NCBI RefSeq assembly: GCF_000240165.1
Contig: NC_017586.1
Location: forward strand, 1,302,001 to 1,366,000
Reading direction: 5' to 3'
DNA length: 64,000 bases
From: Streptantibioticus cattleyicolor NRRL 8057 = DSM 46488
GTDB taxonomy: Bacteria; Actinomycetota; Actinomycetes; Streptomycetales; Streptomycetaceae
Position numbers and translations under genes: made by a program. The notes under the pieces were generated by a model. The model saw only the letters and a list, made by a program, of their open reading frames with translations, was not told the origin of the DNA and did not search any database. Shown here piece after piece: positions 32,115 through 34,110 of this stretch; position 1 is the stretch's first letter, and each line of letters begins with the position of its first letter.

Positions 32115-32876
32115 TCAGCCGCGGTGCGCGAGGACGTGCAACTGGGTCGCGATCGAGTGGAACGCGGGGAGTTCGGCGGCGGCCAGCTCCAGCTCGCGCA
32201 GCGCCTCGACGGCGCCCGGCTCGGTGTCCACCAGCACCCCGGGCACCAGGTCGGCGAAGACCCGCACGCCGTGCACCGAGGCGACCTCCAGCCCGGCCTC
32301 GCCGACCAGGGCGGTGAGTTCCTCGGCGGTGAACCGCCGGGGCAGCGGATCTCCCTCACCCCAGCGCCCGTCGGGGTCGGTCAGCCCGCGGCGCGCCTCG
32401 CCGAAGTGGCCGGCGATGGCGCGGGCGAGCACGGCGCCGTTGCGGCCGGCGGCGAGCAGGCTCAGCGTGCCGGAGGGGCGCAGCGCGCGCACCACGTTGC
32501 GCACGCCGCCAGCCGGGTCGTCGAGGTACTCCAGCACCCCGTGGCAGAGCACGACGTCGTAGGCGCCGCTCTCCACCACGTCGAGCAGGCCGCCCGCGTC
32601 GCCCTGCACCCCGCGCACCCGGTCGGTGACCCCGGCCTCGGCGGCCCGGCGCTCCAGGGCGAACAACGCGTCCGGGCTGGGGTCGACGACGGTGACGCGG
32701 TGGCCGAGTTCGGCCACGGGGACGGCGAAGTTGCCGGTGCCGCCGCCGGTGTCGAGGACGTCGAGCCCCGACCCCTCCGGAACGGCGGCCTTGGCCCGCC
32801 GTTCCAAGGCGTCCTTGAGCACCTCCCACACCACGGCGGTTCGCAGGGACGCGCGGGGGCGCAGCGGGTCTGACAC
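32115..32876 (-). CDS. SAM-dependent class I methyltransferase
   Basis: About 253 residues from the GTG in VSDPLRPRASLRTAVVWEV, which has AGGAG ten bases upstream. A longer frame continues into a repeat element and is not favoured. Motif I is LDVLDTGGGTGNFAVPVAELG, with acidic motif II TVVDPSPDALFAL, then VRGVQGDAGGLLDVV and the post-I motif YDVVLCHGVLEYLDDPAGGVRNVVRALRP. The substrate is unknown. The fold resembles UbiE/CmoA-like enzymes, and the Streptomyces orthologue lies in the same place beside the HEPN gene. It is transcribed away from the large palindrome. Confidence 0.85.
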   Translation of the reverse strand: MSDPLRPRASLRTAVVWEVLKDALERRAKAAVPEGSGLDVLDTGGGTGNFAVPVAELGHRVTVVDPSPDALFALERRAAEAGVTDRVRGVQGDAGGLLDVVESGAYDVVLCHGVLEYLDDPAGGVRNVVRALRPSGTLSLLAAGRNGAVLARAIAGHFGEARRGLTDPDGRWGEGDPLPRRFTAEELTALVGEAGLEVASVHGVRVFADLVPGVLVDTEPGAVEALRELELAAAELPAFHSIATQLHVLAHRG

Positions 32877-32947
32877 GGCGCGACGGCTCCTCATCCACGG
32901 ATGTTCCACGTACTGGCCGCTCCACCATAAGGCTTCGCCGACCTCAG

Positions 32948-33630
32948 CCATCACTACCTCGGGGTGCGCCCGTTCCCCTTTCGCCGTGGCGGTTCGCTCG
33001 CGCTGGCGGTCAGCCATTACCTCCCCGGGTGCCCCCGGTCCCCCTCTCGTCGTGGCTGGCGTCACGGATGTTTCCCTCCGCCCACCCGTGGCTGTCATCG
33101 CATAGCGCGGGATGCGCACTGTCTGCCTGGGTTCCCGGGGGCCCTCCGGGGTGACTCCTCGCTCCCCGTATCCGCCACGGTTGCGCTCCGGCTACTGGGT
33201 CGCTGCGGGGACACCCCTGCACGCCCCCGTTCCGCATCGTTCCGCGCTGCGGCACGGGGTGGGTGAGAAAGGAAATCGGGGTCACCCCAACCTCCTTACT
33301 CACCCCCACCCGCGAAGAGAGGCACCCGCGAACGGACAGGAGGGGGTGTGCCGGGGGTGTCCCCGCAGCGACCCAGCGGCCGGAGCCAAGCTGTGGCGGA
33401 TACGGGGAGCGAGGAGTCACCCCCGGCGCGCCCCCGACCCCATACGCACCCAAGGCGAACCCACCCGGTGCCGAACCCAACCAAAACCCCACCAACCACC
33501 CACCGGACAGGGGCGAACGGGGGCCACCCCGGCACCCTGAAACGGGCGAACCGGGCCACGGAGTAATGGCTGACCGCCAGCGCGTAGCGGGCCCGCTGAC
33601 CGCCAGCGCGAGCGAACCCGCGTGAGCGAA
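32948..33630. repeat. Long imperfect palindrome (about 680 bp)
   Basis: The gap between the methyltransferase and HEPN genes is one large imperfect inverted repeat. Perfect pairs include a 23-base block at 32991-33013 against 33596-33618, and a 22-base block at 32999-33020 against 33563-33584. The longest arms, 33148-33222 against 33347-33424, match at nearly nine bases in ten. The right arm carries the CTGACCGCCAGCGCG block twice, and the left arm holds a degenerate direct duplication beginning CAGCCAT (near 32948 and 33011). Open frames on both strands here encode look-alike peptides only because of the palindrome. No transposase or target duplication was found. Confidence 0.85.
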
Positions 33631-33633
33631 CCG

Positions 33634-34110
33634 TCAGGAGGGGAGGGCCAGGAGGCGGTGGACGAGGCGGAGGAAGACGGTGACGGCGCGGAGGAGGTCG
33701 TCCGCCTGGCGCCAGGTCGCGGCACCGGGTATGCCCGCCTCGGCCCGTGCCCGGCGTTCCGCGCCGGAGGCGAAGAGCGCACTCCACTCGGCCAGTTCGG
33801 GGGCGGCCTCCGGAAGCACCTCCCAGGCGCTGCGGATGCGCCGGCGGCGGCGCGGGGTGGCCTCGGGACGGCCGCGTACCGCGAGGACCGCGGCGGCGGT
33901 GCGCAGCGCGGCCAGATGCGCGGTGGCGTACCGCTCGTTGGCCGTGGGGGCCTCGGCCGCCTCGGCGAGACCGCGGCGGGCCTGGGCGAGCAGGTCGAGG
34001 GCGGCGGGCGAGGCGGTGGCCCGGCGCAGGACGGGGTGGACGTCGGCCGGCGGACCGGCGGACCGGCCTCCGGGGATCGGACGGCGACGCGATGCGGCGG
34101 TGGCAGCCAT
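33634..34110 (-). CDS. SAV_6107-family HEPN protein
   Basis: A 158-residue, mainly helical protein starting MAATAASRRRPIPGG, with CAGGAGGTCGCC directly ahead of the ATG. A helical domain (SPAALDLLAQARRGLAEAAEA ... YATAHLAALRTAAAVLAVRGRP) matches what I recall as the SAV_6107 HEPN family, conserved in Streptomyces. HEPN domains can be RNases or nucleotide-binding partners of NTases, but the RNase motif Rx4-6H is not evident, so function is unknown. The C-terminus (WRQADDLLRAVTVFLRLVHRLLAL) may be amphipathic. The 208 bases upstream separate it from the divergent ABC operon. Confidence 0.8.
   Translation of the reverse strand: MAATAASRRRPIPGGRSAGPPADVHPVLRRATASPAALDLLAQARRGLAEAAEAPTANERYATAHLAALRTAAAVLAVRGRPEATPRRRRRIRSAWEVLPEAAPELAEWSALFASGAERRARAEAGIPGAATWRQADDLLRAVTVFLRLVHRLLALPS

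Follow-up and report, generated by a model that had tools for sequence, protein, structure and literature searches.

The large palindrome between a methyltransferase gene and a HEPN gene in our window (the whole 64,000-nt stretch of the Streptantibioticus cattleyicolor chromosome analysed here) is best read, with a probability of about two in three, as one copy of a non-autonomous, MITE/BIME-like interspersed repeat family of Streptomycetaceae that is placed at gene 3' ends and would act there as a 3'-end RNA structure and as homology for recombination. The element is GC-rich, 600 bases long and present in about 50 scattered copies. The host genome has 8.10 Mb in two replicons, the chromosome (C2, 6,282,967 bp) and C1 (1,812,548 bp); after all located loci had been collected, the count came to at least 47 copies of ≥300 bp, about 84–92% identical, besides a few that are shorter. 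The initial annotation had called for a search for further copies and had held that a single conserved copy would point to a local structure; the count disposes of that option. In a DNA similarity search 40 scored copies span most of the element at 84–92% identity, while searches for the terminal and inner motifs as patterns gave 53 and 54 matches, respectively, all on C2, and added several loci. Copy orientation is balanced (27/27), and none of the 47 copies lies on the 1.81-Mb second replicon (p = 7e-6 if placement is proportional to size). These statistics are based on 46 sequence stretches (445 kb, gene-called with a custom gene caller). Solitary terminal-repeat units outside elements are absent from the 445 kb and from 180 kb of C1, and the idea that these units are independent small REP elements was rejected for that reason. 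Half-length element clusters (150–370 bp, several directly behind successive genes) occur at C2:2307363-2311216 and 2576183-2581250 (L151, L158, L159) and are perhaps a simpler or decayed form of the element.

The window copy and its flanking genes are laid out as follows (window positions):

32936..33636, no strand: whole composite palindromic repeat element, delimited by similarity to other copies (instance C2:1334936-1335636)
32940..32990, + strand: truncated tandem repeat of the left outer segment (CTCAGCCATCACTACCTCGGGGTGCGCCC...CGCCGTGGC), found in several other copies as well
32991..33020, + strand: left terminal repeat GGTTCGCTCGCGCTGGCGGTCAGCCATTAC
33021..33127, + strand: left outer segment, with the strongly conserved core GTTTCCCYCCGCCCACCCGTGGCTGT
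33128..33232, - strand: hairpin module, inverted copy, with conserved stem and hypervariable apex (module covariance model match C2:1335128-1335232(-))
33233..33338, no strand: centre between the two modules, with a smaller inverted repeat GGGTGAG..CTCACCC
33339..33443, + strand: hairpin module, direct copy, GGGGGTGTGCCGGGGGTGTCCCCGCAGCGACCC-[variable]-GAGCGAGGAGTCACCCCCGGCGCGCCCCC (covariance model match C2:1335339-1335443(+))
33444..33562, + strand: right outer segment (ACCAAAACCCCACCAACCACCCACCGG..)
33563..33633, - strand: right terminal repeats, with full units at 33563-33584 and 33595-33618 and a partial third at 33620-33633 that abuts the stop codon
33634..34176, - strand: flanking gene for a SAV_6107-type HEPN protein (PF18726), TGA stop at 33636-33634, element directly after
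32115..32876, - strand: flanking gene for a SAM-dependent methyltransferase (PF08242), its start side facing the element at ~60-100 bp; the start codon is uncertain and the ORF 32115-33119 runs into the element

The outline drawn in the initial annotation held up on measurement. The imperfect palindrome between the two genes is present at ~32,936–33,636. Its perfectly mirrored blocks, first given as 22–23 bases, are 24 nt (32991-33014 / 33595-33618) and 22 nt (32999-33020 / 33563-33584) long, and the central arms, described as matching at nearly nine in ten bases around a loop, are 81-nt inverted repeats (33137-33217 / 33354-33434) with 86% identity and a spacing of 136 nt. The duplication reported inside the right arm is 16 nt long (33569-33584 / 33595-33610). 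As to the suggested hairpin potential, the RNA fold predicted for 32900-33680 has –487 kcal/mol versus –378 ± 6 for dinucleotide shuffles (z = –17.8), which makes it 109 kcal/mol more stable, and none of 20 shuffles folds as well. The palindrome is real and far beyond chance. What the initial annotation did not contain was the stop-codon position, the covarying hairpin in two modules, the occurrence in sister genera and the rearrangement breakpoints.

Alignment of 40 copies resolves the inner palindrome into a pair of hairpin modules of ~105 bp in inverted orientation. Each has a basal stem and an asymmetric internal loop (CCCCGCAG / CGAGGAG), both conserved, and a hypervariable apex; two such modules, outer segments and 24–30-bp terminal repeats make up the composite. 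There are constant blocks and variable patches: CTCCTCGCTCC...CTGGGTCGCTGCGGGGACACCCC is kept in each arm of nearly every copy, and the ~30 nt between these motifs come in a small number of distinct forms, reshuffled among arms and copies. The ends, which read GGTTCGCTCGCGCTGGCGGTCAGCC, differ among copies, and extra tandem outer segments or terminal units are carried by several of them, the window copy included. The element is non-coding. Look-alike peptides had been noted on both strands, and as mechanical ORFs they exist, but as coding sequence they fail: stops or net frameshifts interrupt the two longest frames in the majority of the 40 copies, substitutions in these copies show no three-base periodicity, and the frames have no match in Pfam. 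On these grounds a coding gene was rejected.

Copies lie flush with stop codons. Fifty gene 3' ends face a copy, and 47 of them fall between –68 and +27 nt from the element edge; the 44 start-codon sides are 9 to 1912 bp away (median ~115 bp). The usual junction is a stop codon followed at once by CGGTTCGCTCGCGC, and CGGTTCGC-like sequence stands directly after the stop in 27 of the 50 versus 11 of 268 other genes. In the window, the TGA of the HEPN gene (33636-33634) is immediately followed by CGGTTCGC. Gene settings of the 47 copies (28 tandem, 11 convergent, 8 divergent) are near the background mix. The stops flush with elements are mostly native: nine other flush genes were compared with their orthologs in Streptomyces sp. 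RPT161 and/or S. humicola, where the C-termini match to within a few residues, several of them in length too, and no element lies behind the gene. The HEPN protein of the window falls short of its orthologs by a few residues or more, so some gene ends may have been trimmed. Junctions of 76 HEPN-methyltransferase pairs in other Streptomyces are mostly far shorter than that of the window, and those of the closest relatives, whose sequence was examined in full, are without the element.

Several single loci deserve mention in this context. The HEPN-methyltransferase junction of Streptomyces albireticuli (L029) holds a different long GC-rich palindrome, CCGGGGCTCCGCCCCGG...CAAGCGCCGGACGGGCTGAAATCAGCCCGTCCGGCGCTTG, which is probably another Streptomyces repeat family. 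Three unrelated genes of our genome (at C2:5547310, 4426400 and 1460913; L127, L136 and L132) run about 15–20 codons into the element and stop at the same element-encoded TGA (..CGTCGTGGC TGA), and their predicted proteins share a ..RRG-stop tail. One copy (C2:4702086, L148 3087) lies not behind a protein gene but behind a tRNA-Gln/Glu/Glu cluster with its terminator.

Outside this genome, DNA searches with the element found, apart from a trace in S. scabiei, nothing but remote relatives in RPT161 (G012/G043), and the part in common is the hairpin module. With an RPT161 copy as query, three genomes of the sister genus g13 gave 19–28 matches each, whereas S. humicola and ICBB 8177 gave none. 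A covariance model of the module detects at least 65 instances in this genome, 18 in G052, 5 in G012, 7 in G058 (genus g6) and one in each of three further g6 genomes; under strict filters it finds none in 54 of 61 sampled family genomes. The exact stem pattern, sought in 298 family genomes, occurs only in this genome, in two g13 species and in one chance-like match in G111. An origin from plasmids or phages was rejected, as neither collection contains a match. In the module phylogeny this genome forms one clade, G058 another, and G052 and G012 are interleaved. Two copies of G052 (L234, L244) begin directly behind a stop (TAG followed by TTCGCTCGCGCTTGGCGG). Orthologous sites tested in g13 relatives are mostly without copies. 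Three sites are common with g13 species (3908418 with G052, 3597710 with G061 and the gamma-glutamylcyclotransferase side of 4086513 with G052), less than one being expected by chance on a rough estimate, and in G058 the gene concerned at 3597710 is likewise followed by a copy. Part of the set is thus old and inherited (or the sites are hot), not recently transposed. Copies at the shared sites are not each other's best matches, which fits concerted evolution or repeated insertion. In G058 another palindrome with conserved stem and variable apex, GGTCAAAGACC...GGTCTTTGACCTCTCACCCC, adjoins the module (L235, L242, L260), which suggests a second hairpin module type. Many element matches in G052 and G061 lie at contig ends (C13:11, C49:1, C56:48, C61:3, C11:5, C50:7), so the repeats probably break assemblies and the counts there are lower bounds.

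The hairpin module covaries. In the cross-genus alignment 12 of 24 stem pairs have changes on both sides (compensatory), and on five measures 0 of 500 shuffles reach the observed value while all slid controls are far lower, although the alignment used (A3) was fitted to the model and leans towards it. The internal loop (CCCCGCAG / CGAGGAG) is kept while apical stems are replaced by unrelated, still paired sequences. Cells with G-U outnumber those with A-C on this strand (47 versus 5), an excess that favours RNA pairing on this strand, though with few independent events behind the count. RNAalifold on the full 600-bp alignment of this genome shows little covariation because stems hardly vary here; covariation is seen only across genera. 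No T-run follows the hairpins in the sequence, so they are not textbook intrinsic terminators, and nothing in the elements comes near a gathering score in Rfam. A match to the Scr4115 sRNA (RF02829) above gathering score was noticed a few kb upstream of an element (L142 214-340, C2:3595113-3595239). An RNA role at transcript ends is plausible.

The strongest alternative takes this role as primary: a functional structured RNA, or 3'-end element under selection, that serves as a bidirectional hairpin for transcript ends and stability, its copies homogenised by gene conversion and its dispersal incidental. We regard it as possible and hold it only tentatively. It would account for the stem covariation with G-U bias on one strand, for the internal loop conserved across genera, for flush positions behind stops in two genera and for shared-site copies that are not mutual best matches, as concerted evolution predicts; the inverted modules would also offer a sense-oriented hairpin to transcripts from either side. 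It is harder to reconcile with 8 of 47 copies that are flanked by divergent genes and have no nearby stop codon, with most tested orthologous sites in g13 relatives being without a copy, with 54 of 61 sampled family genomes in which strict filters detect no module, and with the lack of a T-tract; the G-U counts, moreover, stand for few independent events.

In our view the most likely history is that a trans-acting activity dispersed the copies, which either survived at gene 3' ends or went there by preference. For the MITE/BIME-like family that we favour, a mobilising activity supplied in trans, perhaps since lost, would spread the copies and tolerate or prefer gene 3' ends. The hairpins at each site would serve as RNA structures of the 3' end, for transcript ends or stability, and recombination of the copies with one another would shuffle the variable cassettes and rearrange neighbouring genes. 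Recombination among copies is indicated only indirectly, by mosaic cassettes and breakpoints. The block C2:4082066-4086397 is inverted relative to G052 and RPT161 and has inverted copies at both ends. The HAD/GDT1 junction, ~60 bp in RPT161, is split here by a block of four genes (short-chain dehydrogenase, MmyB-like regulator, aldo/keto reductase, alpha/beta hydrolase) that is bounded by two copies in direct orientation. It seems unlikely that the copies arose mainly in this manner, by homologous recombination and carry-along with gene blocks at a recombination hot spot, and not by transposition of their own. Copies at both ends of the inversion and of the inserted block, local copy clusters and mosaic cassettes common to arms and copies agree with such an origin, but the window copy and several others sit in otherwise unbroken gene pairs, which block insertion does not explain.

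The MITE-like idea put forward at first is supported in part. The element is multi-copy, non-coding and transposase-free with terminal inverted repeats; target-site duplications, looked for in the 17 copies with both ends, are absent (mean boundary repeat 2.2 nt versus 2.1 nt shuffled). A classical MITE, in which a DNA transposon has been reduced by deletion and its 24–30-bp terminal repeats are recognised by a DDE transposase that moves it, is rather improbable, and the same absence speaks against it. Terminal inverted repeats, a non-coding centre, high copy number and empty orthologous sites speak for it; the ends, however, are variable with tandem terminal units, and all 53 end matches in the genome belong to short elements, with no longer relative that has the same ends. 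No full-length ORF-bearing relative that could be an autonomous partner is found among the copies examined. Mobilisation by a RAYT/IS200 system was rejected: the Y1/RAYT transposase family PF01797 is absent from the genome, while control genomes give matches. These negative results, the sites shared with g13 species and the lack of a T-run weigh against the reading that we favour as well. A long shot is a mobile structured RNA (sense-strand stem, conserved internal loop and hypervariable apical cassette) that spreads specifically to CDS 3' ends, possibly via its RNA where translation or transcription terminates, with recombination keeping copies similar within a genome. The idea of a single-copy palindrome with a local regulatory role, or of a small protein gene, for which one could cite long ORFs on both strands, is refuted by ~50 copies, mostly broken frames and the lack of codon periodicity and Pfam matches.

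A stop-flush family with a covarying hairpin and hypervariable apices would offer a concrete handle on three questions: how repeats of this kind select 3' ends when RAYT transposases are absent, how 3' ends form in bacteria of very high GC content, and what gives rise to inversions and inserted gene blocks in the core chromosomes of Streptomyces. There is a warning for annotation in it too, since long frames inside such repeats are not genes, and draft assemblies appear to break at the copies. Enterobacteria and pseudomonads have interspersed palindromic repeats that are well studied; for Streptomyces we found no description of them in a non-exhaustive search of the open literature, and to our knowledge the family is an uncatalogued relative of BIME/MITE-type bacterial repeats.

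BOX, RUP and SPRITE of pneumococcus, ERIC and Correia elements are likewise modular or palindromic intergenic repeats, BOX also with repeated modules. Their descriptions set them apart by phylum, size and position rule (PMC10969869). The mycobacterial MIRU inserts apparently at gene borders with minimal damage, at start-codon sites with translational coupling (PMC12548453). Compared by literature description, it is also an actinobacterial interspersed repeat at gene borders; however, MIRUs are short, contain a coupled, in-frame small ORF and are found in operons at start codons, in coupled stop/start sites, whereas our 600-bp non-coding palindrome stands behind stops, avoids starts and has no conserved ORF. 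With prokaryotic MITEs (PMC10969869) the element shares short length, many copies, strong RNA structure, terminal inverted repeats (24 + 22 nt perfect) and the lack of a transposase, but it differs from them in lacking a target-site duplication, and the end matches in this genome include no parental transposon. The BIME/REP repeats of enterobacteria, Pseudomonas and Stenotrophomonas are, like it, interspersed, non-coding, palindromic, extragenic and composite, with units in alternating orientation, an RNA hairpin and frequent positions behind genes. Known systems have REPs with a GTAG head and RAYT (PMC2817692); in contrast, instead of a GTAG-headed unit of 20–40 nt we find modules of ~105 nt with a GGGGGTGTGCC stem in a 600-bp composite, terminal units that read GTAATGG, a flush-to-stop position and a host genome without RAYT/Y1 transposase. 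The family is filed as MITE/BIME-like by its mode of working, not as a member of either group.
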